Assembly (NCBI GenBank): GCA_963693315.1
Contig: OY856187.1
Coordinates: 426,429,748 to 426,493,747 of the forward strand
Reading direction: 5' to 3'
From: Diogma glabrata
Taxonomy: Eukaryota > Arthropoda > Insecta > Diptera > Cylindrotomidae
Length of the DNA stretch: 64,000 nucleotides
The notes below the pieces were generated by a model. It did no database searches. It was not told the DNA's origin and worked only from the letters and a program-made list of their open reading frames with translations. Position 1 is the first letter of the stretch. Each line of letters opens with the position of its first letter. The position numbers and the translations under genes are program-made. Below are positions 1,370 to 63,937 of the stretch, piece after piece.

Positions 1370-1640
1370 TAGATCAATTTGGTATATTGGTAGCGCGCTC
1401 GACTGATGATCTATAGATTGAAAGTTCGAAACCTGAATATTGCGAATTTTTTTTTTAAATAACATTAAAATTATTGTTTTTTTACACACTCTTATTTTAT
1501 TCATATTCATACATACATTTCGTTTTACGATAATGCAGTTTTTAAATTTTTATTTTAAATAACATTAAAATTGTTTTTTTTTTATTCATAAATTCATTAT
1601 TTTCTTAAAATAACTTTAAAATTATTGTGCTTTTTTATTT
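1370..1640 (+). mobile_element. tRNA-derived SINE copy
   Basis: Positions 1385-1432 resemble the pol III promoter half of a tRNA: TTGGTAGCGCGCTCGAC looks like an A box and AGTTCGAAACC matches a B box closely. No matching acceptor stem is present, so it is not a tRNA gene. The downstream AAATAACATTAAAATTATTG stretch is also found, in diverged form, at about 46805-46830 behind a second tRNA-like head, so the two appear to be copies of one SINE family. The AT-rich body repeats the AAATAACATTAAAATT motif at about 1556. Confidence 0.55.
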
Positions 1641-2630
1641 TATTATTCATGAATGAATTCATATAAATAAATAATTCATATATAAATAAAACTTATATAA
1701 AATTTTGTTTTTGGATACTTAGAATTATCGATAAAGTAGTTAAGTATAGAATGCACTTAGGGGATTTTATTTTTTTATTTTAATTAAGTTACATAATACA
1801 TATATTTATAATTTTTGTTGATGTTTTATTAATAAAACCTTTTTTATTTTGAATTAGTCACAAGATATGTAATATTTATTATGAAAAATAGATCGAATTT
1901 TTTTTAAAGGAATAATAACCTTTTTTTAAAGGAATAATTTTTACACTAAATAGTAAAGTTGGTAGATGGTTTTTATAATAAGTTTATTAAAAAAGAAAAG
2001 AGGAAACAAATTGATGAAAGTACATGATTAAAGGTCTATTTTCTCACTTTTTGACACAACATTTCGTAAAATACTAGCGCTGGCAGGACCAGAACCAGAA
2101 AATTGTTCTTTAGTACAGCGAACATAACAGCAAAGAAAAATATACATTTTTAACAATTTTTAAAAACAATGTAGGTTGAAAACATTTGATATTTTTATAC
2201 AAAAAACAGTTTAGGTTATAATATACATTTTCAAACATTAATAATTTAAACCGATTTAATAAAATGAACTTTAAGAAACTCAGTACGAAATTTCGTTGTC
2301 ATTGTCGATTTAAATGTAAAAATGTCGATGTCGATGTAAAAATCATAGAATATTTTTTTTCCATCATTATTTTTGCATAATTTCATTTTTTGCAAATAAA
2401 ATATAGAAGAACAAAAGCTACTATTTCAGTATTTTCTTATTATTATTATTTTCAACCATTTGTCATTGATCGTATAAAAATTTATCGTTAACCTCACGAT
2501 GGTTTTTGTAAAATTATAGTTAAGCAGAAGGTACACACAGAATAGATTAGAAGAGGTTGGATTATGATGGATAGTACTTAGTAGTTGTATCAAAGCCGGA
2601 TGAAAAGAGCAAGAGTGTATTGGTGTGCGT
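1641..2630. other. AT-rich, nothing recognised
   Basis: Only short duplications are visible, such as TTTTTTTAAAGGAATAAT twice at about 1899-1940. No credible coding sequence or element ends. Confidence 0.6.
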
Positions 2631-2670
2631 AGGGAGGGGGAAAGGAGGGAGGGGTGGGGGGGGGGGCGGA
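2631..2670 (+). repeat. G-rich tract
   Basis: Forty bases are almost pure purine with at least four G runs of three or more, ending in a run of about ten Gs before CGGAGCCCGCGGG. On its own strand this could form a G-quadruplex. It lies 70 bp left of the 2742-4392 element and is extreme against an AT-rich background. The open frame crossing it on the minus strand encodes a proline-rich run only because of this tract. Confidence 0.6.
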
Positions 2671-2741
2671 GCCCGCGGGATACCCCCTAGTTAAAAATAA
2701 AAGAAAATTTGACATTATTAACCTAGGTAATTTTTTGTTAT

Positions 2742-4392
2742 TAGGGTTCCGTACTTTGAAAAAGTAAAAACGGTACCCTATTGGTGAGACTTCGGTGTCC
2801 GTCCGAATTTCTACATAATCGATTTTCTCAAAAATTATAAGTGCTATCAACTTGAAATTTTTTACAGTTATACAATGTATTTGTCCACGCCTTCTGACAA
2901 CAAGAAAATTATGAATATTTGTTTTTATCAATATTTTATGGACATTGATAAGGAGATAGTAAAACAAAAGTTTGTTTTAAGGAATCGAGTTTGGTTTAAA
3001 AAAATCAAAAAAAATTCAAATATTTCAAAAAGTCCTTTCAACGAATTATCGACTGCTCAGTTTTTAAGTTATTTCCAAAAACGTGTGTTTATTTTTTTGT
3101 CCCCCACCTTAACCTCGAATATTACAAAAGCAAAAAATTGAAAAAATTCAAGGTTGTAGGAATTTTGCATACAAAAATCCGTTTTTTTGTTTTGGTTGTT
3201 ATAATTTCAAATGTTTATTGGAGGGGGTTGAGAGTGAAAATTACGAAAACAAAATATTTTTGGTCATGTCAAGTGGGGTATCAAATCAAAGGTTATTTTT
3301 TTTTTCTAGTCTAAAACAACTTTTTTTGTAATTTTCGAATGCACAGTTTTTGACTTATTTTGGAAAAAGTGAAATTTTAGTTTTGTCCCCCCCACTTATC
3401 TTCGAACATTACAAAACAAAAAATTTAAAAAAATTCACGGTTGTAAGAACTTGGCAAAAAAAAAATGAAAAATTTTTTTTGGTCGTTATAATTTCAATTG
3501 TTCTTTGGAGGGGGTTGTGAGTAGAAATTTTGAAAAAAAAATATTTTGGACCTGGACAAGTGGGGTGTCATATGAAAGGTGATTTTTTTTGTAGTTCAAA
3601 ATATTTTTTTGTAATTTTCGAGAACATGGTTTTGGACTTATTTATAAAAATGTGAAAATTTGATTCTGTCCCACCCTTTATCATCGAACATTACAAAAGC
3701 GAAAAATTGAAAAAATTCACAGTCATAGGTAATTTTGTAAAGATTGAACGAAAACTATAGCGGTTATCTCATTATTTCAAATGTTCCTTAGAAGGGGGTT
3801 GAGAGAAGAAAGTTCGAAAAAAAGTTATTTTTGACCTTGATAAGTGGGGTGTTATATGAAAGGTTATTTTGTTTCTAGTCTAAAACCGTTTTCCGAAATT
3901 TTCGATTTAAAATCGTGTTTTTGGGAAGAATTTCACGTAGAATTTTGAATTCTTTGATCAATTTTTTGAGGATCAATTTTGTTACTTTGCAGCAAATGTA
4001 TAATTTAGTAACTAATTCAGAAAATATTTTATAATATTAGGGTTATAAAATAATATTGAATAGATTATGGTTAGTCAGATGAACTCGGCATAAAAAACAT
4101 TATTCGGGCTGACCATTGCAATCTAGTAATCTTCATGGTCCAAGAATTGTAACCGTTTGTTATCGGTATACGCATTCCATTAATTCTCAATGATTTCGAG
4201 AAAAACTGTATTTATGTTTGACTAATAAACGAATTAAATTCAAAAATGTTGCCACCATTATTCCACAGTTATGGGTAAAATTCAACCCAACGTATAACTA
4301 ACTACATTAGCAAATACTGTTTTTTCATATTATTATATACACGGAACCCTCGGCGAGCGAGTTATATTCGCACTTGACCCGACTTTTATTAT
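2742..4392 (+). mobile_element. GGGTTCCGT/ACGGAACCC-bounded repeat element
   Basis: The left end (2742) carries AGGGTTCCGT followed by an A-rich loop and ACGGTACCCT, a small hairpin. The right end (about 4351) carries the exact reverse complement ACGGAACCCT, followed by CGGCGAGCGAG and CGCACTTGACCCGACTTTT. I associate this pair of ends with a very abundant, poorly classified repeat in lepidopteran and other insect genomes; that comparison is from memory. The interior has no real ORF. It consists of about four diverged units roughly 280 bp apart, marked by AAGTGGGGT.TCA.AT.AAAGG at about 3273, 3559 and 3843, and by GTCCCCCC.. .ACCTT and CGAA.ATTACAAAA repeats. Transposition class unknown. Confidence 0.6.
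2900..3910 (+). repeat. diverged ~280-bp tandem units inside the element
   Basis: Marker strings recur in fixed order: GAACATTACAAAA at about 3113 (variant), 3404 and 3687; GGAGGGGGTTG at about 3221, 3508 and 3790 (variant); AAGTGGGGTGT at about 3273, 3559 and 3843. The spacing is about 286 then 280 bases. Units are diverged by many substitutions and homopolymer indels, so this is an old internal array. Confidence 0.6.
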
Positions 4393-6779: not shown

Positions 6780-7165
6780 TTTATTGACATACGAGTTAAC
6801 GGGAGATATCACATAACACTGGCTATGGATGAACTATATTCAGCCAACGGTAGCACCCTGAATCTTAGCTGTGAAATATTCCTTGATGATAGTACGTTTT
6901 TGCTTACTCGAAGAAACAAGCTTTCATATAACTCTATAGCTGAACTTGAATCATTTAGGAAGACAGTGCGTCACATGAACAAGGAATATGCCACCAGTTG
7001 GATTAATGGCAACCCCATTTTAGTTTTGTTCCTGTAAATTTTTTAATTTGTGTCCATTACCAACTTAGAACGCACGTTGTTGTGGGATCTTGGTCTTAAA
7101 AAGTTGTTGTTGTGACACATATTGTAATTCCTACTACACAACACATTGTGTTAAAAAAAAAAAGT
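6780..7165 (+). mobile_element. SINE-like repeat with LINE 3' tail, copy 1
   Basis: The head (6788-7035) contains ATACGAGTTAAC, GATGAACT..ATTCAG..AACGGTA and CCTTGATGATAGTACG. The tail (7065-7160) is related to the last part of the local LINE: TTAGAACGCACGTTGTTGTG, then GTTGTTGTGACACATATTG, then ACACAACACATT and poly(A). A 70-codon open frame crosses the head, but other copies at 17.2 and 61.3 kb do not conserve it, so I treat it as non-coding. The arrangement (unrelated head, LINE-like tail) is what a LINE-mobilised SINE looks like. Confidence 0.55.
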
Positions 7166-7909
7166 TTTGATGCTATACACGTTAATGACATCATATTGTG
7201 ATGTTATGTACACAACTTACTGGCTCTAATTTAAATGAATGGTATGAGCCTACACAAACACCAACAATTAAAAATTTACAAACACCATGTTTGTCAAAAA
7301 ATGAGTGATGATTCGTGAAAACAAGGAAATGGATCCTTCCTACTTTGAAAATCATATTATCGTAACTTAAGTAGGTGCAGGGCATGAATTCTTAATGCTT
7401 CGTATTCTAAAAAATGAATAAGACATTACTGTTGCTGATTTCATCGAGGAATCTGGATCCAATTTGAATGAAAGCTCGCGTAAGCCTGAGTTTGCAGCAA
7501 ACAAATATTTTCAATATTGTTTTCAACAAAGTCAATATGCCGCTACCTTCAATATATGCCCCAGAAACCATACATATTTGCAATGCAATTTTGACTACCA
7601 TCGAATGAGAGAAGTACTTGGTGGCAATTATAATTGAGTAACGGTGATACACGATCGTTAAACGTATGTCAGAGAATTCGTTGTTCTCAATGAACGAAAT
7701 GACTTCATTCACAATTTCTTTACATACCTTCCACTTTTAAAAGAATTACTTGCTAAAAACGATTCTAGTTGGGACTATACGTATAAACAAAAGAGGAAAA
7801 GCCAATAAAGGTAGTATAATTGTATACGCTATTCTATAAATTGTGCGTCTTTATTCACACAGTTAACGAGAGCAAATAGAAAAATAAAATATACATATTC
7901 AGTTCAATG
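7166..7909. other. nothing recognised
   Basis: Two minus-strand open frames of 64 and 101 codons occur, but neither has a recognisable domain and both start and stop in AT-rich sequence. No repeats or element ends seen. Confidence 0.5.
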
Positions 7910-7911
7910 TG

Positions 7912-8010
7912 TAAATAGACGAGTGGTTAGTCAAACTGACCGAGATTCAGAGGTAACGAGTTCAACCCCTGATCGAAACAAAATATATTTTTAGGAATCA
8001 ATAAAACTGA
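7912..8010 (+). mobile_element. tRNA-like SINE head
   Basis: GACGAGTGGTTAGTC resembles an A box and GAGTTCAACCCCTGATC a B box, about 45 bases apart, as in tRNA-derived SINE promoters. The acceptor arms do not pair, so it is not a functional tRNA. Downstream sequence is AT-rich. Confidence 0.45.
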
Positions 8011-10019
8011 ATGGATTGATGAAATTATAATGGTGCGGCAACTTGTGGGCAATACTTGAAAATATTAAAGAACGTATCCTGGAAACAATTGCTTTTATAA
8101 AAAGCCAAATCTGAAGTGAACTTTCTTGACCAAATGGCACGAAAGTATAGCGCGAAAGTCAGCTTCACTGGATCATCTTTTTAAGTCTTTTACAACATAT
8201 TGATAATAATTGCTAACATCGTATGGTTATTGTGTAAGGAAACCATATATAATTATAACATAATTGTCTGAACAGGTTATAGAAAGTGGTAATGAAGAAA
8301 CACTCCAGTGTAATTCCAGTAGCCAGTCAGAAACACAAAACATTCACAATAAGTAGTAAAAGTAAAAGACATTAATATTATTTATTAAAAATTTTTATTT
8401 ATGGTAGCTGTGTTTCAAAAATTGACAAAATCAAGTTAAGCAATTTTTAAGAGAATGTTTTTTGCATATTGGCCTGATAATTGTATATACTCGCCTTTTA
8501 CTCGCCGAACGTTTGCCTATAAAGCATGAACACTAACATAATTGTAAAAATATTTTTTTCCTTTTTTACAAAAGCTAAACATTAAACTGTGTAAGGTATT
8601 GTCGTAAGTAGAGGAGCAAGCGATAGTCAGTACAGATTGAAATTAAGAAACCGGTTTGAATGTGACAATCTCGTCTCTTTCGCTATCGAAGTGTTTTGTT
8701 TTTCCTAAGAAGTTCCAAGAGTCAAGACTTTCAGTATCTAAAATTGGAAAATAGCAAAAAAAAATTTAAATGTTTTACAGAAATAAACAAATTATAAACT
8801 ATAAAACTTAAATATTTTTGCGATCTCTTATAATTTACAGAAAAACAAACTGTTTTGAATATCAACGTTAAGGTAGTTATTTAAAAAAAATAACTCAGTT
8901 ATACATTAATCTATTAATACATATATGTAATTAAACAAACCTTTTTTTTATTTCCTTATAACTATCGAAAAAAATCACCAGATGTTCTATATTTTTAAAA
9001 TAAATTCAATTCAAAATTCAAAACATAATAATCATCATTAATCAGTTTAAATTTTTCTTGCAATCTCTGAAATTCATGATTACAATCACCACCATCACAT
9101 CATCATGAGCTGCTGCTACTTTTCACAATAAATCAAAAGTTTTCTAAAATTGTTTTACAAATAGTTCATGAGAGTTTTTTGTTTCGTTTTCTAGCAACAC
9201 ATTTTAGGTTTCATCAATTAGTTCGGTTGACCGAACTAATAAATAAAATGTCAAACATTATATTTTAATTATTAGTTCGAACACTTAAAAATGAAATAAA
9301 ACTTAAATTAAATGAATAAGGGGATTTTTATGGGATTCATGTGATCTACATTGAAAAATGGGTCTTGGTTTTAATTAGTTTTAGATTGTTACTAAATAAA
9401 ATGAAATTCAATCTATGTACCAGTATTTTTTTAATTCTTTCAATTTTATCATTATAACCTTCTGCCCTAATGTCATATTGAATTCAGATTATTAATTTTC
9501 TTAACCAGTTCAATTTATATTATCTACAAAAATTTACTTTCCATTTTTGTTATGGTAAAACAATTTTCCTAAACAAACATAAAAAAACATTAAACTCATC
9601 AAAACTTTAATACAACACAAACAAAAACAATAACAAAAATTCATTAATGTTCAAATAATTCAACGAAATATATGCTAAATTAAAACCAAAACAAATAATA
9701 AAAAATTCATAAAATTTTTTTATTGTTTCAAGTTTTCCTTCCTCTCGAATAAAATAACCAACTACAATAGAACTCGGCAAATGAAAAATCAACAAATAAT
9801 AAAAAAATTTAAATAATAAATTACATGAAATTTAAACCTAACTTATTTTCGTTTACAATGAATGGTGGAAAAAATTTCGCAAATGTTTTTTTAATTTTTC
9901 TCGATTTCGTGATTTTTGCAATCAATTTGGTCGTATGCAACTCACAACTTCTTTACTCTAAGAGAAAAATTGTTAGCACTTAGATCACACACAAAATGTA
10001 AAGCTGCAAAATTACATTT
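8011..10019. other. AT-rich, nothing recognised
   Basis: Long AT-rich interval without credible coding sequence. A short palindrome TTCGGTTGACCGAACTAAT lies at about 9221. Confidence 0.6.
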
Positions 10020-28474: not shown

Positions 28475-28825
28475 AGATCGGCAAATTCATGGCTACAGTA
28501 CTGGCCCAATAACAATAGCCAATTAATGTTAACCATTAACTGGCTATTGCTTGACCATTCAAAGTAAACTGCACTGGCAATTTTCTATAAACGGTAGATT
28601 GGCCGGTTCATGGTTCCAGTAATGACACGATAACAATAGCCAAGCAATATTTACCATTCATGGGCCAGTGCTTGGTCATTCAAAGGTAACAATATACTGA
28701 CTATTTTCTGTAAACCATAGATCGGCCGATGAATGGTTCTAGCATTGGCCCAATAACAATAGCCAAGTAATGTTAGCCATTAATGGGCCAGTGCTTGGCC
28801 GTATGTCAATGTCTGGCAAAACCTA
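28475..28825 (+). repeat. tandem array, three units of ~121-123 bp
   Basis: Units start AGAT[CT]GGC at about 28475, 28596 and 28719. Each contains CAATAACAATAGCCAA (variants), a CCATTAATGGGCCAGTGCTTGG block and, in the first two, ATTTTCT.TAAAC.. before the next unit. Divergence between units is roughly 20%. The third ends near 28825. No coding capacity. Confidence 0.8.
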
Positions 28826-28901
28826 CTTGGGATGGTTTCGCTACGTTTTGTTCAAAAAGCAAATTTTAAGTTAAATTCTCTTATTTGTTTTAGTTGGTAT
28901 C

Positions 28902-30471
28902 CGGTCAGTTCACAGAAAACCAAATTCACGGAAAACCAATTCACAGAAAACCAATTCAAGAAAAACAATTTACAGAAAACGATTAAATTCAGAAAACTGA
29001 TTAAAATGTTATTAGGACTTGCGTTTGTTCCTTCTGGAGACGTTACACAAGCATTTAAATCATTAAAAGAACAAAATATAATTTCTGAATCAGTAAACGA
29101 ATTGTTAGACTATTTCGAAGATAATTATGTGGGTAGATTAGATGTTCGCACTAAAAAGACAACAGATAGGAGGGATCCTAGATATGTCATTAATGCATGG
29201 AATGTTTATGAAGCTGTACAAGAAGGATTCCTACGAACAAATAATAATGTCGAGGGATCTCACAGTGGTTTCAAAAAATTAGTTGGTTTAGAGCAACCGA
29301 CCACCATAACTAATATTAATCGTGATTGATCTTCTGTCAAATCGTTTTTTTGTTTGTTTGTTTTCCTTTATTTCTCTGAGAGAGAAACCGGTTTGTCTTC
29401 CCAAAGACGTGCATAAATTTTTCATTTGATTCAAAATTGTAGAATTATTGCGAGTTTCTTTTAAATCTATAAGAAAAAAACCTACCACAAAAAAATAATA
29501 GTTTCTCCCTCACTGCTACTATATAAAAAGAAATAAGTAAAATGACAGATTAGGATTTGATTCTAACCAAATATATAAATTTTAATCTTTTATCTATTAA
29601 AAATAAACTACACAATAATGAAAAGTTGGTCGCCAGCTAGTTTTCATAATATACTTTCAGGATGTATACATACCTTAAATATTTGCACATTTGCATTATA
29701 AAATAATACAATATTCACTATTATAAAGTCACTGGAAATAACACAATAAATGTAAAATACTCTCGTAATTATTTTTATTCATTTTATAAAAATTAGCACA
29801 ACTAAAAATAATAGATTGTACTTTTTGTTTCGTTTTAAATTATTTAATTGTTTTTAATTTATAATTTAATACAATAGTTGGTTGTTGTAAATAAACAGAA
29901 ATGCAAATGGCGAAATGAGAAATTGAATATGACATATTAGCAAACACGATTTCTTATGTCTCTCTTCATACAATTTTAAAGTTATGTTCTCTCTATATTT
30001 ATATATACTCTAAGGTTTAGAGCATCCTTCAATATGGAGTTTTTTAGAAAAGTTGCAATCGGAACAAACAAAAAATGAAATAACTTTACAACAAATTTTT
30101 GCTGGTATATCTGTGCCGCCAAAAAAGTAAAAATATCGTGATTACGATCAAAGGTTACAAAAAATTGTATCTTCTTACTCAACAATGGCCATAACTGATT
30201 TTTAAGTGCTGTTGCGCATAATATAATAATTTAAATTATCAATTATAAATAAAAAATTTACCTATTGAAATATTGAACAACTTACGAGTATCATTTTTTT
30301 TTTGTTTTTTTTTTTTGTAAATATTTTCTTATCTTGAATAAGAATTAGTTCACAGAAACTCCGTTTCTGTGAATTGTTTTTCTGTAAATTGTTTTTCTGT
30401 GAATTGTTTTTCTGTGAATTGTTTTTCTGTGAATTGGTTTTCCGTGAATTGGGTTTTCTGTGAACTGACCG
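28902..30471. mobile_element. Mutator-like (MULE) element relic with repeat-built termini
   Basis: The ends are inverted: CGGTCAGTTCACAGAAAACC at 28902 and the same, reverse complemented, ending at 30471. Inside each terminus a 15-16 base unit AATTCACAGAAAACC (right arm GTTTTTCTGTGAATT) is repeated about five to seven times, 28910-28990 and 30350-30465. Between them lies a MULE-type transposase fragment (29006-29329), then about 1 kb of AT-rich sequence. No 9-11 base target duplication could be found. Terminal arms built of subrepeats occur in foldback-like and MULE elements. Confidence 0.7.
29006..29329 (+). pseudogene. MULE transposase C-terminal fragment
   Basis: From an ATG at 29006 the frame gives LLGLAFVPSGDVTQAFKSL, then NELLDYFEDNYVG, then a WNVYEAVQEG segment and RTNNNVEGSHSGF, ending at a TGA at 29327. 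These blocks match the end of the MULE/FLYWCH-associated transposase family common in insect genomes (typically ..ALAFVPP.DV.., ..LLDYFE.TYIG.., ..RTNN.VEGWH..F..), recalled from memory. The catalytic DDE core upstream is missing and the family's extension after the last block is replaced by a premature end. The frame can be extended upstream to 28832 only through the terminal subrepeats, which is not meaningful. Inactive. Confidence 0.75.
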
Positions 30472-39138: not shown

Positions 39139-40605
39139 TATATGGTTCATTCTGTTACAAACCGAACACCTTTCTGATCGACACCTCTTCGATTTGGCTG
39201 AAACTTTTTTTGCGGATTCTATGTCAAAAAAAAACAGATACGTATCCAAGAAATATGATACCTTTTCAATTATTATTCTTAAAATATTAATTTATATAGC
39301 GCGCAACGACCAAAAAATTCGCTTTTTTGCTAATAAATCAAAATCTGTAACTTGCATCAAAAAAAGTTAAATGTAAAAGTTGTAGATAATTAAAAGATCT
39401 ACAATTTTTGCCTACAAAAACTTTAAATTAAATTGCAAAAAATGTTACAAATCATCTTTTGAATTAAAATGCAATATTTAAAAATATACCTTTTGATATG
39501 TTTATTTTTAAATTTTTTATTTTATTAATAATAACATTACTTTCTTATAGTAACAATTGTATTTGATTTTTATTTTTAATGAAAATCGATTTCGACTACC
39601 GTCATCATCAGGTCTTAAATTATTATTCTTTTTTAAATATTGCATATTAACATATGAAATATTAAATACTTCTTAATTAACTTTATTTTTTATTACGTAA
39701 TTTTTGTTATTTACTAAGATATTTTTTTTATCATCTATTATTATTTTTCAAAGTTTGTCATGGCAGTGGTGGCTAATACAACAGATAGGTTGTGGCGCAC
39801 GGATGGGTTTTTTTCCCAACGCTTGATAATAATGTTTTTTTTCAATCCAGATTTATTTTCTAACATGTCAGGAGATTTGGTTTGAAAACGAATTACCCAT
39901 AAATTTTTTTTATGCAAATTTTCAATAAATAATTGTTACAAAGATGATTTGTAACATTTTTTGCAATTTAATATAAAATTTTGAGGTTATGTCAAAAATT
40001 TGTTTAAACAAAAGATGTAGATCTTTTAATTATCTACAACTTTTACATTTAACTTTTTTTGATGCAAGTTACAGATTTTGATTTATTAGCAAAAAATCGT
40101 TTTTTGGTCGTTACGCGCTACATAAATTAATATTTTAAGAATAATAATTGAAAAAGGTACTATATTTTAAAAACTTGTTTTTGCCGTAAAATTTGAAGCA
40201 GAATAAAATGGGAATACTAAGAACTTGATTCGTTTTGGGGGCGATTGTTAAAAAGCGCTTTAAACAATTAAATTGTTTACAACAATATGAATTTGTTAAT
40301 ATTTTTTATAAAAAATATTTTTTTCTCAAAGTTCAGTCCTGCAGCTATAAAAGTGTATTTGGCGAAAATTTTGTAGCTCTTATAGATTCTGAACAATGAG
40401 TTTTTGAAAATGGGACAATCAAAAACTCGACATTCTGAAATGTTTGATTACTTGTTTTATCAAAAATATGCAAAAAAAAAAAATTTCTTGTACACGTACC
40501 TCTTTTTTTCGATATAGAATTCGCAAAAAAAGTTTAAGCAAAATCGAAGAGGTGTCGATTAATTTTCATCAAAATTCGTTCGGTTTGTAAAAGAATGACC
40601 CATAT
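39139..40605. mobile_element. foldback element with ~330-bp inverted arms
   Basis: The outer 28 bases match in inverted orientation at 26 positions (left ATATGGTTCATTCTGTTACA, right end the reverse complement of ATATGGGTCATTCTTTTACA). The arms continue inward: CGACACCTCTTCGATTT, AATATTAATTTA, CAAAATCTGTAACTTGCATC and TAAATGTAAAAGTTGTAGAT recur inverted at 40550, 40120, 40062 and 40040. The right arm has about 330 extra bases (40160-40490). The spacer (about 39490-39930) has no ORF but contains the hammerhead-like core at 39.6 kb. A foldback or MITE-like element without its own transposase. Confidence 0.75.
39582..39620 (-). ncRNA. hammerhead-like core motif
   Basis: On the minus strand: CTGATGA, one base, GAC-GGTA-GTC (three-pair stem II), then GAAATCGATTTTC. 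The arrangement equals that in the 18.6/19.7-kb repeats. I cannot draw convincing stems I and III, so only the core is supported. It probably marks a Penelope-like relic in the foldback spacer. Confidence 0.4.
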
Positions 40606-50125: not shown

Positions 50126-50382
50126 TTAGTTTAACATGCAAGTTTAAATCTTAATTAACTTAAATATCACAATTGGTCTCAGTTAAAATTTAACATACAT
50201 ATAAAAATGAAAAAAAAAATTGGAAAAATAGAAATGAAAATGAAAAAAATAAAATAGTATATTTTCTTACAAGAGATGAAAATGCTGTTTTTTCGTGAGT
50301 GAATATTTGTTCACGAGACGCGTTAGCGTCGAGTGAAGCAAGTTTACGAACGAAAAACATTTTCATCTCGAGTAGGAAATGC

Positions 50383-51327
50383 TATTTTTTCTACGATAGT
50401 AAATAAATATTATAGTAATTGTAAATTTCCAGATGCAAATATTGCAACATAACCTAACAAATACTAATAGCGAAAACAAACAAAATTTATAACATTTTTT
50501 AGCGTGTAAATTTGGTTTTCATTATTTGCATTGGATTGTTAGCAGGGTGCTATTGTTTATAATTTGCAAACGTATATTTTATACACTACTAATAGAATTT
50601 ATAAATATCATCCGTTTGAAATCAATGTTTTTAAATAATAAGCACATTTTAATTATTATTTTATATTATGTACACTTTTTAACACTAAACAAATACTTTA
50701 CAAAACTGTTTTTGACTACCCTTTCAATTTTGTGAATGACGTTTTGGTTGTTTAAAATAGTAAACAACATTCCCTTAGAAATCTTAATTTGCAATTAAGC
50801 AGAAAACAATTTTTTTTTAAAACCAAATAATAATATATTTATTAAAATCTTATCCTAAAGTTTTTTTTTGTAAATTTGTTATAAATATTCTCACCTGCGT
50901 AATAGAATTCAATTAAAAAAATTTTGTGTTTTTAAATGACACAAAAAATATATTTATTTTAAAACAGTTCTTGTGCTCGCCAAATCGGCGATGAGTAGTG
51001 AGTTTTATATTTCGCCTAATATACAGTTATAAAGATTCTTTGAATGAATTAAAATTGTCTACTTGTAGTAAAACCTTTAATTTTATAGTCAATTTTTAAA
51101 AATATTGTGGATGTGTTGTTTAAAATCGTTTGTAAATTTATGAAATTTCTTTTTTATCCTCCATCTGTCGGCGAACACCGGAAATATGCGGTTAATGGCA
51201 GATATTGTACACTGTCATTCTCATTTTTTATTAAAATATTTTCACACTAGTTAAAAAATTTGTCATTTTCATAGCGTATATGCTGCTCATGAAAATCCAT
51301 TTTCCATATGCTATCGTAGAAAAAATA
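50383..51327. repeat. block bounded by 17-bp inverted repeat TATTTTTTCTACGATAG
   Basis: TATTTTTTCTACGATAG (50383-50399) is present inverted at 51311-51327. The 17-mer differs at only two positions from the 17-bp inverted repeat around the tyrosine recombinase (62221 and 63898). Just outside, GAGATGAAAATG...CGAGACGCGTTAGCGTCGAG (about 50274-50340) matches 60340-60460 in reverse. Interior AT-rich, no recombinase. Confidence 0.45.
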
Positions 51328-55393: not shown

Positions 55394-56024
55394 CGCCGCA
55401 CAATGGTTCAAAACGCATTAAAACACGCGCATAAGTGAAAAAAAAAATTTTTTTGTTTTCTCATAACTGACCATTAGTTTTGTTTTCTAACATATTAAGG
55501 ATGTCAAAAAACAGTTTTACCCACAAAAAAAAATTAAATACATCACTATTATGAACATAAATTAAAAGAAAAAATAATTGTTATTTATTGCATATATTTT
55601 TAATTATTTTTATTGAAAGTTTATGTCAGCAGTACCATAAGCACGCATACATGAGACTTTATATTACTCTTTAAAAATGTTTATGCACATTACTAGAACC
55701 TTTTAAAGTCACAAATTCATGTATATAGTTTGTATGTATATATATATGTTAAATTTAAATCATGATACTTATTTCCTTTAATATGATTGCTCGCCTAATT
55801 TTCAAACATCAAGCACTTGAAGGGCTTACTCTGGCTTACGACCAAATTTTTTGGATATTTACTAGTGATGTATGTACTAAGCGAGGCACTTAATTTCATC
55901 TGCATATTTCTGCCTATTCTAGAGATATTTCATTATTATTGCAAAAACTGCCCGAAAAAAAACCGACAAATTTACATTTTTTCGTAAAACCGTCCTTAAA
56001 TCGTTATTTTTTTTTCTTTTCTTT

Positions 56025-56990
56025 GACGTAAATGTGACATGGAAATTTTTAAATTTGTTATAGTTTTTGAAATATTTTTGGAATTTTGAAAAAAGTTTGT
56101 ATTTTTGATTTTGTAGAATTCTTGGAATATTTTTAGAATTTTGGAAAAAGTTTTAATTTTTGATTTTATTTTAATTTTTAGAATATTTTTGGAATTATGA
56201 AAAAAGTTTCAATTTTTGATATTGTTATTATTTTTGCAATATTTATACAATTTTGAAAAAAGTTTGAATTTTTAAGAATTTTTGGAATATTATTAGAATT
56301 TAGAACCAGTCCAGTTTAAATATTTGATTTTATTCTAAGTTTTGGAATTTTGAAAATAGTTTAAATTTTTGATTTTGTTATAATTTTTGCAATAGTTTTA
56401 GAATTTTTGAAAAAAGTTTTAATCTTTGGTTTTGTAATAATTTTTGGATTATTTTTAGAATTTTGAAGAAAGTTTGATGTTTGATTCTATTTAATTTTTA
56501 CATTATTTTTGGAATTTTGAAAGAAATATGAATTTGTGATTTTGTAATATTTTCTCGAAACGCTAAATGGAGAAGTTTTGAGTAGTCTGCTGAGTGTATT
56601 ATCTTTTCACAAAATTATGTTAAAATAAAATACTGGTACTTCTACAGAGAATTTTATTTTTGATATACATATCGCTGCCTAAAACTAAAAACAATGTCCT
56701 CAGAAAAGTTTGTTTCTGAAAACTAAACCCAGACCGAAGTCTTAATATCTCAGAACTGTGAGATTTCAGCCCTTCACATATTTTATTATTTAAATAATAA
56801 AAATTAAAAAATACTGTCATAACATTTTTGTTTATTGATAATATTAAATTTTTTTTATAATTTTAAACAGTTTCTTCATCATCTGTGTCTTGTTCTTGAA
56901 CTGTAATTTTGAATAATTGTTTCACATCTTTGTGATGTTCGTGTGTTTTGCGATTTAAAGTGGATGTTCGCATTTTTGTCCGAAAAAAAC
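56025..56990 (-). repeat. left arm of Transib-internal palindrome
   Basis: Reverse complement of about 57635-58590 at high identity. From outside in: TGACGTAAATGTGACATGG, the TTTTGGAATATTTTTAGAAT-type array, CGAAACGCTAAATGGAGAAG, CTCAGAACTGTGAGATTTC, then an antisense copy of the last transposase codons (56880-56985). The 56879-57232 minus-strand frame arises only because of this mirror copy. Confidence 0.85.
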
Positions 56991-56993
56991 AAA

Positions 56994-57738
56994 AAGTTTC
57001 TAGATGAATTTAAGAAAAAATTAAATTTATCTGTTGACATGCCAAAACAAGGTAACAATGTAAAAGATAATCTTTGTATTTTTTTCTTACAACTAAGATA
57101 AACTTTCAATACTTGATTTTTCGTGACGAATACTTTAGGTTTTGGATCTTCTAATGATGACAATACGTCTAGGCGGTTTTTCGAAAGTGAAAAAGTCACT
57201 GCAGAAATCACAGTCTTGCACTTATCCATCAACTTAACGTTATTCTCACTGCAATAAATTGCTCTGAAGATATAGATCCTAATAAATTTTTTAATTATAC
57301 ACTAGAGACTGCAAATACAATTGTAAAAGAGTATGATTGGTGGCCTATGTCAACAACAGTACATAAAATACTGATGCACGGTTGTGACATCATAGCTCAG
57401 TCCATTTTGCTAGTCGGTAAGAGAAAAACTTTATTTTACTGGAAATTAAATAACTATTGGATAATAAATGAATATGTGTATATAATTTTGTAACAGGACA
57501 ACTGTCCAAAGAAACTCAAGAGCACTGCAACAAAAATTTTAAGACTTTCAGGAGTAGATTCGCACGAAGAGATTCAAGAATTCACTATCTTACAGATATT
57601 TTTATTCGATTTCTTGTTTTTTTCGGACCCATTAATACCAAAAATGCAAACATCCACTTTAAATCGCAAAACACACGAACATCACAAAGATGTGAAACAA
57701 TTATTCAAAATTACAGTTCAAGAACAAGACACAGATGA
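56994..57738 (+). pseudogene. Transib (RAG1-like) transposase, C-terminal fragment
   Basis: Three exon pieces can be read. Piece 1 (56994-57051) ends ..NLSVDMPKQ and splices at GTAACA (57052) to TTTAG (57138). Piece 2 (57139-57416) starts GFGSSNDDNTSRRFF, which parallels the Transib NDGNTARRFF block, then shifts frame at about 57200-57255 and continues SEDIDPNKFFNYTLETA and STTVHKILMHG. A second 80-bp intron (GTAAGA at 57417 to ACAG at 57496) leads to piece 3 with GQLSKETQEHCNKNF and FRSRFARRDSR, stop at 57736-57738. In Transib and RAG1 the third catalytic acid sits in LSEE..E..NK (RAG1 ASEGNESGNK); here that position reads K (LSK). Both aspartates upstream are deleted. Frameshift, lost N-terminus and E-to-K change make it inactive. 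Family alignment is from memory. Confidence 0.8.
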
Positions 57739-58590
57739 TGAAGAAACTGTTTAAAATTATAAAAAAAATTTAATATTATCAATAAAAAAAAATGTTATAA
57801 CAGTATTTTTTTAATTTTTATTATTTAAATAATAAAATATGTGAAGGGCTGAAATCTCACAGTTCTGAGATATTAAAACTTCGGTCTGGGTTTAGTTTTC
57901 AGAAACAAACTTTTCTGAGGACATTGTTTTTAGTTTTAGGCAGCGATATGTATATCAAAAATAAAATTCTCTGTAGAACTACCAGTATTTTATTTTAACA
58001 TAATTTTGGGAAAAGATGATACACTCAGCAAACTAATCAAAACTTCTCCATTTAGCGTTTCGAGAAAATATTACAAAATCACAAATTCATATTTCTTTCA
58101 AAATTCCAAAAATAATGTAAAAATTAAATAGAATCAAACATCAAACTTTCTTCAAAATTCTAAAAATAATCCAAAAATTATTACAAAACCAAAGATTAAA
58201 ACTTTTTTCAAAAATTCTAAAACTATTGCAAAAATTATAACAAAATCAAAAATTTAAACTATTTTCAAAATTCCAAAACTTAGAATAAAATCAAATATTT
58301 AAACTGGTTCTAAATTCTAATAATATTCCAAAAATTCTTAAAAATTCAAACTTTTTCCAAAATTGTATAAATATTGCAAAAATAATAACAATATCAAAAA
58401 TTGAATCTTTTTTCATAATTCCAAAAATATTCTAAAAATTAAAATAAAATCAAAAATTAAAACTTTTTCCAAAATTCTAAAAATATTCTGAAAGTTCTAC
58501 AAAATCAAAAATACAAACTTTTTTCAAAATTCCACAAAAGATTTCAAAAACTATAAAAAATTCAAAAATTTCCATGTCACATTTACGTCA
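57635..58590 (+). repeat. right arm of Transib-internal palindrome
   Basis: Includes the sense copy of the last transposase codons and 3' UTR, CTCACAGTTCTGAGATAT, the CAAAATTCTAAAAATA array (58070-58560) and CCATGTCACATTTACGTCAT. The spacer between arms is about 650 bp and contains the rest of the transposase fragment. Confidence 0.85.
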
Positions 58591-58599
58591 TATAAACAG

Positions 58600-59990
58600 C
58601 TAGCTAATTTTCTTTTCCATGAAATTAGCTAAAAAAATAAACGAAATCATTTTTTTGACATACTTGACAATATTTTTTTTGACAAACTTATAATGCAAAA
58701 ATATTCTCAATAATAATAATATCATGTTCATAACATTTCATTTCATCCAAATAACTATTTAATATGATCTAAAAAAAGAATTGAAAATCATTCTTTTGAC
58801 ACACTTGACATTATTTTTTTGACAAGCTTATAATGAAATAATTCTTAATAATAATAATAAAATTTCATGTCATATAAATAAGGAATTTATTCTTTTCCAT
58901 AAAATTGGGTAAAAAAATAAATAAAAATCTTTCTTTTGACACACTTGACAACATATTTTGACAAACTTATAATGCCATAATTCTCAATAATACTAATAAA
59001 ATTACATGTCATATAAATAATTAATTCTATTTTGTTCCATAAAATTGGGTGAAAAAATAAATAAAAATTTTTGTTTTGACACACTTGACAACATTTTTTT
59101 GACAAACTTATAATGCCATAATTATCAATAAAAATAATTAAATTTCATGTCATATAAATAATTAATTTTGTTTTTTCCATAAAATTTCGGTAAAAAAATA
59201 AATAAAAATCTTTCTTTTGACACACTTGACAACATTTTTTTGACAAACTTATAATCCCATAATTTTCAATAATAATAATAAAATTTTATTTCATTCAAAT
59301 AATTAATTTTATTTTTTTCCCAAAAATTGGCTAAAAAATAAATAAAAGTCTTTCTTTTGACATACTTGACAACATTTTTTGACAAACTTATAATGCCATA
59401 ATTATCAATAGTAATAATAAAATTTCATGTCATTCAAATAATTAATTTTATTTTTTCCATAAAATTGGGTAAAAACATAAATAAAAATCTTTCTTTTGAC
59501 ACACTTGACAACATTTTTTTGACAAACTTATAATGCGATAATTATTAATAGTAATAATAAAATTACATGTCATATAAATAATTAATTTTATTTTTTCTAT
59601 AAAATTGGGAAAAAAATAAATAAAAATCTTTCTTTTGACACACTTGACAACATTTTTTTGACAAACTTATAATGCCACAGTTCTCAATAATAGTAATAAA
59701 ATTTCAATGTCATACAAATAATTAATTTTATTTTTTTCCATAAAATTGGGTAAAAAAACTAAATAAAAATCTTTCTTTTGACACACTTGACAACATTTTT
59801 TTGACAAACTTAGAATGCCATAATTATCAATAATAATAATTACATATCATGTCATATAAATAATTAATTTTATTTTGTTCCATAAAATTGGGTAAAAAAT
59901 AAATAAAAATCTGTCTTTTGACACACTTGAAAACATGTTTTTGACAAACTTATGCCATAATTCACAGTAATAATAATAAAATTTCATGTC
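58600..59990 (+). repeat. ten-unit ~140-bp satellite inside the Transib
   Basis: Each unit has TTTGACACACTTGACAACAT, then TTTTTTGACAAACTTATAAT, CATGTCATATAAATAATTAA (variants) and CCATAAAATTGGGTAAAAAA. Unit marks lie at about 58653, 58794, 58936, 59075, 59216, 59357, 59496, 59636, 59778 and 59916, so the period is about 140 bases. Units are 85-95% alike, the edges being most diverged. Open frames inside are artefacts of the period. Confidence 0.85.
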
Positions 59991-60119
59991 ATATACTTCA
60001 AAACACTTCAAGAATTAGTATTTACACGAAAAAAATACTAAACATCCATGTAGAATTATTTAAAAGGGAGCAAAATAATTATGCGCGTGTTTTAATAGGT
60101 TTTGAACCATTGTGCGCCG

Positions 60120-61289
60120 TTCTATACCTGTACATCTGTTCTGGACTTATACGAGGTTGGGACAACTGCATTTCGATAGGAAATTAAACATCTATTTTCA
60201 GTGTGTTTAATATCATCTCTTTATACCCAAAACTAAAAACAATTTCATTTCATTTTTCAAGTCTTGATATCTCAGAGCTTTGAGATTTCAACCCCTTCAT
60301 ATTTATAATTAATATCGTTTAGTTTTACCAATGTAGAAAAATAGCATTTTGTTGCAAATGAAAACTTTTTACGTTTGTGAACCCCAATCGACGCTGGCGC
60401 GTCTCATGAACAAATGTTCACTCATGAAAAAACGGTATTTTCATCTCTTGTTGCAAAATATACTATTTTCCTGATTCATTTTCTTGATATAATCAAAATT
60501 TACAGTTTTTTATTTGAATGTTATGCGAAAGAAAAAAAAATATTTTTCAACGTAATATTATTTTAAATCTGCTTCTTCCTTAAAGCGTGTAATAGCAGTA
60601 AACCAAAATCGTCATGGTGAATCTTTTATAATTTGCAAGAAAAGCAAAAGAAATTTGGAGATATGAAGATTTACTTAAAAAAATGTTGCCAGAATTTGTG
60701 TTGTACCTTAAAACATTTGTTTCAACTTTAAATGAAATGTTCTTGAACATCCCAGTCAACAACATGTCAAACATTAGTATCAACCGCTATAATTAAACCA
60801 ATCAAAAATGAACTAATCTTAATGAACTTTGTTTGATTGATTACCACTCAATACCTAATATACTTCACCTATTACGAACATTTGTTCCATTACACAAAAC
60901 GAATATAAATATAGATTTGTCAGTTTTGTTCAATTAGTTGTATAGTTGTAAAACGATTTCGATTTAAATATTCATAACAACAAACTGATGAATAGTTTAC
61001 TGAATAACAATGAAATATAACTAAAGTTTGTTCGTGGATGTTGAATAATTTATTTTGTTTTAGCTTTATAGTTCGTAAGTGTGTGAATTAATAAGTCATT
61101 ATGAAATCACTTAGGAGGAAAATTGTATGTTTCCTAATAAACATGACTGAAATTCAGACAAATCCTAAAATTTTTTTACTTCTAGCAGCAAACTACATAA
61201 ACATTTTGGTTTGGTGTTGTATCAGTTTTTTATGATTTATTTTGAAACTGTAGTCAAAGTACAGTACAGGTACAGTTATAATAATGAAC
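60120..61289. other. AT-rich; one dispersed CG-containing motif
   Basis: At about 60335-60465, TGTAGAAAAATAGCATTTTG and CGACGCTGGCGCGTCTCATG...GTTCACTCATGAAAAAAC match, in reverse, 50274-50395. The motif also resembles the right edge of the window (63900-64000). No coding. Confidence 0.5.
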
Positions 61290-61632: not shown

Positions 61633-61790
61633 TTGCCATCGCCTCAACGGCGTAATCGATAGCGTGTCTGCCCAAGGATTCGAACCGGGCACTGACGAGG
61701 TAGGTTCGAATCCCAACCGAAACACGAAAAATGTGAAGTGGAGTTTTTTTCTGAACTTCAAACCATACCTTTGAATTGAAAATATTCTAA
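61633..61790 (+). mobile_element. tRNA-derived SINE
   Basis: ACGGCGTAATCGATAGCGTG (A-box-like, about 61650) and GGTTCGAATCC (perfect B box, about 61701) are spaced as in a tRNA. The acceptor halves do not pair and there is an extra ATTCGAACC in reverse between them, so this is a tRNA-like SINE head and not a tRNA gene. Confidence 0.55.
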
Positions 61791-62220
61791 TTACTTCTTT
61801 ATTTACTTGAGTTTAATTGATCTCAAAAATTCAAAATTAGTTCACCACTTATTTTATTTTTATTTTTTTCATATACATATTATTATATATTATAGGATTT
61901 ATTGTGTAGTTATCCATCCTAATATTTCTATCTGCCTCCTTTATAATAACACAAGGACTTACGATTTAAAAGCTATAAAACACTTTTTATTAAAAACAGT
62001 TGTAAGTAATTGATAAATTGAAAAAACACTATGAGCTGATGATCGATAAGTACATATAATAACCGATTAAAATTAATTCTTTAAGTGAAACTCGACCAAA
62101 AAATTGACTAAATGATAAAATTAATACAGCTGGGAACACACTTGTTAACTGCCTATATTCCTCTATGGAACATGAACGACACAAACATGACAGTTTGTAA
62201 AGTTTAAATGCTTAAGAACA
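61791..62220. other. AT-rich, nothing recognised
   Basis: No features. Confidence 0.5.
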
Positions 62221-62307
62221 TATTTTTTCTACAATTGTTGTGAAAGTCAAATTTTCTACGATGAATTTGATAAAAAGTAGGCATTGAAAATTAATCTTCC
62301 CAAATGA

Positions 62308-62392
62308 CGTGTAGAAAGTACTTTCTGCACGGATTTGCCGTGTAGAAAGTACTTTCTGCACGGATTTGCCGTGTAGAAAGTACTTTCTGCAC
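62308..62392 (+). repeat. 31-bp tandem repeat of dyad-symmetric sites
   Basis: Two complete and one partial identical unit start at 62308, 62339 and 62370 (spacing exactly 31). Each contains GTGTAGAAAGTACTTTCTGC followed by AC: a 14-bp perfect palindrome AGAAAGTACTTTCT inside a 22-bp near-palindrome with one mismatch. Paired inverted half-sites of about 10 bases around a short centre are what tyrosine recombinases bind. They lie about 150 bp past the recombinase stop codon. Binding is inferred from position and symmetry only. Confidence 0.75.
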
Positions 62393-62473
62393 AGTTGTGT
62401 TTACATTGGAAAAATAACTAGAAAATAAATCTACAAAAAACACATTCAATGCAATATTTAAAGTGAATCGAAT

Positions 62474-62479
62474 TTTATT
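62474..62479 (-). terminator. possible polyadenylation signal AATAAA
   Basis: TTTATT on the plus strand gives AATAAA on the minus strand, about 65 bases after the recombinase stop. In AT-rich DNA such a hexamer is common, so this is a weak call. Confidence 0.35.
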
Positions 62480-62543
62480 ATAAATCAAATTATTCATAAT
62501 TATAGATTAAACATTAACAATAAATTATAGTTTTAATTGAAAT

Positions 62544-63724
62544 TTATTTATTAATATTTATTGTGATGTTGCATGAAGTACATGCACTAATATTTATCCC
62601 CTCAGTCGTATTTTTAGCAGCCTTAACAATTGTTCTATTGAAAATCATATCTGATTCCGCTGCACTTCCAACAATGGAGCTACTACCGCGACCTATATTT
62701 TCATTATCCATTGCGATATTGTCACTTGCAGGGGCTCCAGTTATTTTCTCACACACAGATATTTTATTTTGAATGGAGTTGTCGACATAGCTTTCCGCAA
62801 CAGCAGAGGATTTCCATCCGCCATGCCTCTTGAGTGTTAAAATGTCTCCACCCGCATCTGCGAGTAACGTAGCAGATGTTCGTCTGAAACAGTGCCCTGT
62901 ATATTCATGCAAATTTGGAAGATTTAAGTAGCTCGCAATTTTTAGTGGAATTTTTCCAAATGTATTTATTCCAATAGCTTGCGAAGTACATTTACCATTC
63001 CGATAGTTAACAAAAAACCTGTTATGAGTGGTGTTTGCAGTGCGAAGATTTCTGTATTTACGATAAACTGAGATCCAATCACCAACCCCATTAGAAACAG
63101 TAAACGTTCGAGTGATGTGAGTTTTGGTGTCTGGCACCTGTACAATTAATATATTTTCCTTATCCTCAATATGATCCAACATCATTTTCAGCAGCTCCTC
63201 CTTTCGACAGGCTCCAGCGATACCCATTATAAGAGCAATCTTTAATTTGAATTTTTTGAATATTAATATTAATTTTATACATTTAAATATTAAATAATTA
63301 CCTTCATCATCCCTGCTGCTTCATTCACAAACTTATTTATATCTTCTCTAGAAAAGGTTCTAGTTTTTTTAGCAACATAGCCCACTGATTTTCTTTTCAA
63401 CAATGCAATAAACTTATGATATTTAGAGATATCGACGTTGTCTTCTAAAATAAGTGTACTCTTTAACATAGAGTACATTGACCATAAAGTGGATGACTTG
63501 AAAATGTTTGATTTTTCTGAAAAATAAGCCAAAAGAACATTCTCCGTAATTTTCGTGGCTTTTTTCTCTCCACACCATGTCAAGAAAGCTTCTTGTTCTT
63601 TTCTATATCTAGTTTTAGATTTTTCAGGTAGAAGTTCCAAACAAACATTTTTAGCTGCCTCAGCAATGTCTTGAGGAGTTCCAATGATAACCTCTTCATC
63701 ACTTTCACCGAAATCACTATTCAT
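62544..63724 (-). CDS. tyrosine recombinase, Crypton-type, two exons
   Basis: Exon 1 runs from the ATG at 63724 to 63302, exon 2 from 63239 to the stop at 62544. The 62-bp intron has GTAATT at its start and TTAAAG at its end and splices in phase 0, giving about 372 residues. A nearby in-frame GTG at 63730 is not a likely eukaryotic start. Residues 1-130 form the helical core-binding half (YRKEQEAFLTWCGEK; STLWSMYSMLKSTL). The catalytic half follows: first arginine in MGIAGACRKEEL, the H-x-x-R box in YTGHCFRRTSATLL, the third box RHGGWKSS and the nucleophile tyrosine in VAESYVDNS. All expected catalytic positions are present; a lysine in the VPDTKTHITRTF hairpin may be the beta-2/3 lysine. A Ser/Asn-rich tail of about 75 residues follows the tyrosine. 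There is no stop or frameshift, unlike every other transposase here. It cuts and rejoins DNA through a phosphotyrosine link. Family (Crypton versus domesticated relative) is inferred from insect context and solitary gene structure. Confidence 0.85.
63240..63301 (-). other. intron of the tyrosine-recombinase gene
   Basis: 62 bases, AT-rich, GT at 63301-63300 and AG at 63241-63240 on the minus strand. Without splicing exon 1 would stop after four more codons (V-I-I-stop) and the catalytic domain would lack its start; with splicing the protein reads NEAAGMMK-IALIMGIAGAC, continuous across the first catalytic arginine region. Confidence 0.8.
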
Positions 63725-63926
63725 TTTCACCGATTTATTTTTAGAACGTTATTCAAACAAAATCAAAAACGATATGGGAAAATTTTTGACAACAATAAAC
63801 CATGACATACTTGATATAGTATAAAAAATGAAAATTTTAAAATCTACATTAGTTTATGGTATTAAGTATTTGTATAGCATATGACTATCGAATCTTGCAA
63901 TTGTAGAAAAAATAGCGTGTATGACT

Positions 63927-63937
63927 CGTGTAGAAAG
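63927..63937 (+). promoter_or_regulatory. half-site matching the 31-bp repeat
   Basis: CGTGTAGAAAG is an 11-base exact match, same orientation, to the start of each 31-bp unit at 62308. It is followed by CAATATTGCAGTACTC and not by the CTTTCTGCAC half, so only one half-site is conserved. It is upstream of the recombinase start, so the two sets of sites flank the gene as direct repeats. Confidence 0.45.

Follow-up and report, generated by a model that had tools for sequence, protein, structure and literature searches.

The window, a stretch of 64,000 nucleotides, holds at its right edge a copy of a transposon whose components are listed in Table 1 together with two relatives. The element is ordered as its left tip (L), a set of 31-bp dyads, a spliced tyrosine recombinase gene, an inverted copy of the left tip (L′), and an imperfect palindrome of 138 nt that closes at the right tip. 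L and L′ belong to a perfect 17-bp inverted repeat (62221-62237 and 63898-63914), which was missed by the first-pass annotation of this DNA; none of 1,000 simulations of the segment under a Markov model produced its equal. Exact matches to the 12-mer GTAGAAAAAATA in the window number four, namely an inverted pair here and a second inverted pair at 50383 and 51316. Relative A, with no recombinase gene, is probably a nonautonomous element.

Table 1. Coordinates of the window element, its parts, and its relatives
Feature	Position	Strand	Remarks
Whole transposon copy	62224-64048 (1825 bp)	minus	Positions 1472-3296 of locus L024; right end 48 bp outside the window
Left tip, L	62224-62237	plus	Arm of the perfect 17-bp inverted repeat
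Dyads	62308-62393	plus	Three units at 31-bp spacing; near-palindrome CGTGTAGAAAGTACTTTCTGCACG
Recombinase exon 2 (catalytic domain)	63239-62544	minus	Stop codon 62544-62546
Intron	63301-63240	minus	62 bp, GT-AG
Recombinase exon 1 (N-terminal domain)	63724-63302	minus	Private 12-nt in-frame deletion near 3′ end
L′, inverted copy of L	63898-63914	minus	Adjoins the right-end palindrome on its inner side
Right-end imperfect palindrome	63911-64048 (138 nt)		Inner arm, center, and start of outer arm inside the window
Relative A	50253-51324	minus	L 51306-51324; L′ ~50383-50404; palindrome 50253-50390; no recombinase gene
Relative B	60325-60467	plus	Right-end module alone; left tip not detected upstream

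The recombinase gene

The first-pass annotation had described a two-exon gene with catalytic R, H-x-x-R, H, and Y positions, and this description was borne out, with R153, K180, H257, R260, H280, and Y292 all found in the 372-amino-acid product. The gene had also been called uninterrupted; its reading frame is indeed open, but it is damaged by the in-frame deletion before the intron, which shortens a family frame of 376 codons. The deletion is absent from all 27 sibling copies, one of which (L027) carries a different, 5-nt deletion there. Nearly all of the 117 aligned homologs fill the deleted segment, which is mostly missing in P0097 and P0113 and one or two residues short in P0032, P0048, and P0070.

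A Pfam search with the window recombinase returned Phage_integrase alone (E = 5.5e-11). The protein matched 936 homologs, and the named organisms among the 120 that were listed are insects, including Tribolium. Each of the catalytic residues R, K, H, R, H, and Y is retained in 110 to 118 of the 118 rows of an alignment made up of the window protein and 117 of the listed homologs; P0001, P0002, and P0023, which exceed 469 amino acids, were left out. A model of exon 2 (mean pLDDT of 77.7, pTM of 0.53) gave XerH, Cre, XerA, and the Tn1549 integrase as best Foldseek matches, with E values down to 5.9e-6, and a sequence search of the PDB gave a single, unconvincing match (E = 0.87). By the list of open reading frames, the recombinase is the sole gene of more than 110 codons in the 1.8-kb element.

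The intron measures 62 or 63 bp in 27 of the 28 complete copies described below and 51 bp in L025, and its acceptor is altered in L045. In homolog P0116, the intron site holds an in-frame insertion, and a related recombinase gene at locus L058 (positions 7100 to 8100) reads through that site without a break; the presence of the intron varies within the recombinase family. We also observed a C-terminal tail of the form GI-x-I-x-NC-x-NCT-x-NI, at about 62544-62610 in the window and, among homologs P0004-P0063, after a variable linker in many family members; a strict regular expression for it matched 29 of the 118 sequences. The tail is predicted with fair confidence beyond a disordered linker, and it may resemble RHIM-type amyloid motifs.

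Copies, ends, and insertion sites

The dyad 20-mer has 126 exact matches in the 1.33-Gb genome from which the window comes, and a reversed-pattern control had none. The 100 matches that were listed fall into 56 array places, 36 of which are covered by the 35 loci that were fetched. The recombinase element, whole or partial, is present in all 35 fetched array loci, the window locus included, so that the dyads and the recombinase do travel together, as the first-pass annotation would have it, in loci that were themselves picked by the dyad and among which copies without a dyad are undersampled. The outcome that was to refute that annotation, in which other recombinase copies lack the repeats or the repeats occur mainly elsewhere, was not encountered in these loci. 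A common left end is reached in 34 of the 35 loci and a common right end in 29, the loci short of an end being interrupted by gaps, rearrangement, or the limit of the fetched stretch. The exact right tip has 64 matches genome-wide (reversed-pattern control, 0). In the range covered by both listings, an array lies within 2.3 kb of 39 of the 51 right tips and within 12 kb of another 7, and 5 tips lack one at that distance; among the listed dyad matches, 9 of the 56 array places lack an exact right tip within 12 kb.

Twenty-eight copies are complete; the other 7 of the 35 loci, in which the two ends do not stand together in a single piece, were excluded from their alignment. Twenty-four measure 1762 to 1837 bp, and the other four measure 1692, 1959, 1995, and 2161 bp. 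The full 376-codon frame is kept by nine of the 28, two of which are duplicates of each other. Divergence of the complete copies from the majority sequence is 0.27 to 2.74% in coding DNA and 0.15 to 1.63% in noncoding DNA. With L048, a duplicate of L047, left out of the substitution counts, private changes comprise 47 synonymous and 183 nonsynonymous substitutions (12 of them stops), a ratio of ~1.07, and shared changes comprise 5 and 14, a ratio of 0.77. The dN/dS comparison among copies, which the first-pass annotation had put forward as a check, therefore gave a value of ~1, with no purifying selection seen in the family of the window element; a ratio of this size in private changes is expected after insertion. 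Some copies diverge more in coding than in noncoding DNA (L036, 2.74% versus 0.30%), and this excess, in exon 2, may reflect alignment errors near indels or an uneven, patchy course of mutation. L047 and L048 (C3, ~391.35 and ~391.37 Mb) have identical host junctions, lie in opposite orientations 19 kb apart, and represent a duplication that takes in the transposon.

The first-pass annotation had also reported three exact dyads at 31-bp spacing 3′ of the gene, and these are present. By chance, the 14-base dyad core, with up to two mismatches allowed, should occur 0.58 times in the window; it was found three times, each time exactly. Of 100 shuffles, 3 also reached three core matches, and what goes beyond chance is therefore the exact tandem spacing. 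The triplicate did not hold up as a fixed feature, with three exact units found in the window copy alone (1/28); 21 copies have two, and the remaining 6 have a single exact unit, accompanied in three of them by a second, mutated one. The 11-base CGTGTAGAAAG, taken for a 5′ half-site, had been correctly recorded in the same orientation as the dyads (63927-63937), but it belongs to one arm of the right-end palindrome.

From these repeats the first-pass annotation had proposed that the dyads are the attachment sites of the recombinase and that direct copies recombine to excise circles. The dyads are exact copies set ~three helical turns apart, and the word GTAGAAA is common to them, to L′, and to the palindrome stem (7 of its 24 occurrences in the window lie inside the 1.8-kb element), a hint that the recombinase may bind the dyads. 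However, the copies stop at L and at the palindrome tip and not at the dyads, the number of units ranges from one to three, with copies carrying only one in existence, and the gene lies outside the array, so that dyad-dyad recombination would not release it. The ends of the copies speak against the dyads as attachment sites, and the proposal as a whole is highly improbable. Judged from sequence, the dyads are more likely to be candidate accessory or regulatory recombinase sites than crossover sites.

Empty sites, which had been named as a further check, were recovered as clean paralogs for two insertions (L029 against two places in L049, and L049 against L026 and L055); other candidates, three for L047/L048 and one for L049/L026, were not clean. 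In the empty sites, just TTT, TTTT, TTTA, or TTTTA (3 to 5 bases) lies between the flanks, with no target duplication. At the left junction, the host base at position -6 is A in 34 of 34 cases (background, 34 to 35%), and AAA occupies positions -7 to -5 in 24 of 34 (background, 6.7 to 6.9% of positions before a T-run, with copies masked); without L048, which is included in these counts, the values are 33/33 and 23/33. Together with the host T-run of the empty sites, the AAA of the left junction points to a symmetric target, AAA-N4-TTT. The extreme tips of the element differ and do not form a plain terminal inverted repeat, but a subterminal inverted repeat and the palindrome are present. Terminal direct repeats of 4 to 6 bp, of the Crypton type, were not found: the right tip of the element is invariant, and the four bases of host DNA next to its left tip are not. 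The circular junction that had been anticipated was not seen, neither a circle junction nor a head-to-tail copy being present within the fetched DNA.

The right-end palindrome and a possible mechanism

Folded as single-stranded DNA, positions 63898-64048 form one long imperfect hairpin (-30.3 kcal/mol, z = -6.25), and the corresponding end of relative A folds with -26.0 kcal/mol (z = -5.7). In the consensus of three modules, the stem can extend from the base next to L′ as far as the right tip, with AATAG pairing with CTATT. A profile of three ends retrieved further modules from the fetched loci, giving 12 end modules in total, in which L026 and L049 represent one family. The 12 modules align at the tips and the center and much less along the stems, and both sides have changed in 23 of the 25 consensus pairs. 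Paired cells amount to 87.3%, compared with 62.6 ± 1.9 in shuffled alignments (0 of 500 shuffles reach the observed value), a test in which related sequences can exceed shuffles, and with 35.5 to 50.2% for slid arms, a control that leans toward the structure since the structure was derived from the same 12 modules. Arms score a mean of 18.9 when paired with their own partner and 5.4 across families; in B, L058a, and L058b, the outer arm of another family outscores their own.

Between families, changes in L tend to be accompanied by changes in L′. A left tip matching L′ with at most 2 mismatches in 16, a match equaled by at most 1% of shuffles, was found for seven modules, namely those of the window element and relative A and L058a, L058b, L045, L056, and L026; L058a and L058b pair with each other and could together form a single composite. 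The match is weaker in L034 and L049 (3 mismatches, with 3% and 2% of shuffles as good, respectively), and no L was detectable for B, L046, and L044 in this test of the 12 modules. With the 16-mer anchored differently, the L/L′ match in L058 was not significant.

Two further genes of the recombinase family, at L058 and L055, were found in the fetched DNA after the copies had been masked. The L058 gene is diverged (44% to P0109) and consists of interrupted frames with the R, H-x-x-R, H, and Y motifs. A perfect 14-nt inverted repeat has its arms on either side of the gene (6790-6803 and 8349-8362) and was equaled in 5 of 2,000 simulated flanks and in 6 of 200 when wider flanks were used. On the 5′ side of the L058 gene lies a palindrome (8369-8495) with a score of 29, six simulated 2-kb stretches scoring at most 13. 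At L055, the best palindrome (score of 14) lies within the gene, with none found on its 5′ side, and the inverted repeat was not significant, being equaled in 76 of 200 simulations. The layout is thus present in two of the three recombinase families seen.

Retention of a hairpin shape across related elements while the letters of its stem change suggests that the fold is read by the recombinase or by a factor acting with it. Alternatively, the element could have inserted as an ordinary Crypton, with the palindrome and repeats having no role and the arms kept matched by template switching or intrahairpin conversion. Conversion within a hairpin is able to homogenize its arms, and the recurrence of the palindrome does not separate conversion from selection as the source of matched arms. 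Nevertheless, the position of the palindrome, a similar length, its center, and its tips recur in 12 modules, seven of which have an L/L′ pair of their own, and the palindrome end is the right tip in all 29 right junctions seen. We therefore consider a palindrome without any role improbable.

A different explanation starts from the near-identity of the end layout to those of Helitron2 and HINEs, which must be taken seriously: the element would have Helitron2/Helentron-type ends and be a nonautonomous carrier, with a Crypton recombinase as its passenger, moved in trans by a Rep/helicase. Helitron2 has been described with one arm of an inverted repeat at the 5′ tip and the partner arm in a subterminal position just upstream of the 3′ hairpin, with a 5′ T, and with compensatory changes (parts of PMC3627910), and the 5′-tip repeat and the position of its partner are matched by the window element. 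Helentron HINEs insert into T-rich sequence, leave the target unmodified, have Ts at both ends, and may contain tandem repeats (parts of PMC4067079), and the window element shares with them the lack of duplication, the T-run, the Ts at both tips, and a tandem repeat. Asymmetric inverted repeats, a T-rich unmodified target, and compensatory changes are thus common to the window element and the Helitron2/Helentron group as portrayed in the sections of PMC3627910 and PMC4067079 drawn on here. In contrast, the 1.8-kb element encodes a tyrosine recombinase and no Rep/helicase, with no other frame of at least 110 codons; two recombinase families ~44% apart occupy the one layout; and the conservation of catalytic residues across homologs is hard to explain for a passenger. 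A supported 5′ hairpin is also lacking, since none of eight left tips folds into a significant hairpin in which the tip itself takes part (L026, with z = -2.9, has one further inside). In addition, the palindrome, at ~138 nt, is several times longer than its Helitron2/Helentron counterpart, the 3′ inverted repeat being placed ~20 to 60 bp from the end in the two papers, and a symmetric target such as AAA-N4-TTT is not described in the same sections of the two papers. On balance, we regard movement as a Helitron2-type carrier as unlikely.

These observations suggest that the window holds one copy of a young, multicopy, CryptonI-like DNA transposon, which is probably mobilized by its own tyrosine recombinase and whose folded end probably matters to its movement. 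The recombinase is proposed as the mover on the basis that it is the sole gene, that its catalytic residues are kept, that its model resembles Xer, Cre, and the Tn1549 integrase, and that insertion is conservative wherever it can be read. In the mechanism that we envisage, the recombinase would bind L and L′, and the palindrome, going by its geometry, would fold out as a cruciform or as a single-stranded hairpin. Folding would bring L′ to the right host junction and make both ends alike, and the element could then leave as a circular form and reinsert by conservative strand exchange at the T-run of a target.

A more specific and more tentative proposal, reached by analogy, is that Crypton-type transposons of insects recombine at one of their two ends through a hairpin, with the recombinase recognizing its shape and L′ in the way that IntI recognizes attC. 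This is possible rather than likely. If true, folding would give an asymmetric element a pair of matching inverted ends, and the elements would constitute a class of hairpin-end tyrosine-recombinase transposons in animal nuclei with a layout convergent on that of Helitron2.

Comparison with known systems, and other repeats of the window

Judged by its gene, the window element is closest to the insect Cryptons (CryptonI). As characterized in the sections of PMC3212892 used here, CryptonI elements are short, encode only a tyrosine recombinase with R-H-R-Y, and have no C-terminal domain that was found; they occur in insects, make no target duplication, and have nonautonomous derivatives, all of which are points of likeness. 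The window element differs from that description in its L/L′ pair, its structure-conserved end palindrome, its AAA-N4-TTT targets, and its empty sites. In the same portions of that study, animal Cryptons are reported to have no terminal repeats, a finding that included a comparison among 50 copies from a single family (Kojima and Jurka 2011, PMC3212892). Fungal CryptonF elements and Starships are likewise tyrosine-recombinase transposons, as far as the consulted parts of their descriptions go, but CryptonF has 6-bp terminal direct repeats and a GCR1_C domain (parts of PMC3212892), and the window element has neither.

The integrases of Tn916 and Tn1549 share the recombinase fold (Foldseek) but belong to bacterial conjugative elements. 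Tn916 and Tn1549 prefer AT-rich targets, as the window element does, and we know of no end palindrome of its kind in them. The integron attC/IntI system, as outlined in the excerpts consulted, is also a tyrosine recombinase system, and its imperfect palindrome keeps a conserved structure but not a conserved stem sequence. It differs in that the window element is a eukaryotic transposon, for which recombination of a folded single strand would be a putative step. A search of titles and abstract openings, with most subscription journals and all preprints outside its scope, returned none on a Crypton with an end palindrome.

The mechanism of animal Cryptons has been hard to study from sequence, since those published lack recognizable terminal repeats. 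In the present case, one genome offers precisely defined ends, a consensus for the target, empty sites, copies whose frames are open, and nonautonomous relatives of small size, and excision, circle formation, and the role of the folded end thereby become directly testable. If the recombinase reads the fold, eukaryotic Cryptons would be linked to integron-type recombination at folded sites, and Helitron2-like ends would not by themselves identify a rolling-circle element.

Searches for relatives in viral contigs (by protein, by alignment, and by two DNA patterns) and in genome contigs (by alignment) confirmed none; the best of 15 DNA-pattern matches in the viral contigs (L008) was rejected as a chance match in a coding-looking stretch. 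Rfam gave no match at gathering thresholds.

Several further repeats were observed in the window. A tRNA-like stretch at 61641-61837, with a B-box-like GGTTCGAATCC and pieces at 88 to 94% identity in L030 and L034, is perhaps a tRNA-derived SINE. A long inverted repeat at 56024-58590, with arms at ~56024-56970 and ~57650-58590 and many perfect 16-mers, encloses and overlaps a frame of 140 amino acids (56879-57301) and is followed by a 140-bp satellite array (58613-59995). An inverted pair of 15-bp tandem arrays (28902-30464) lies near a frame of 181 amino acids (28784-29329), and an inverted repeat at 39323-40096, with arms of roughly 130 bp, is probably another foldback element.
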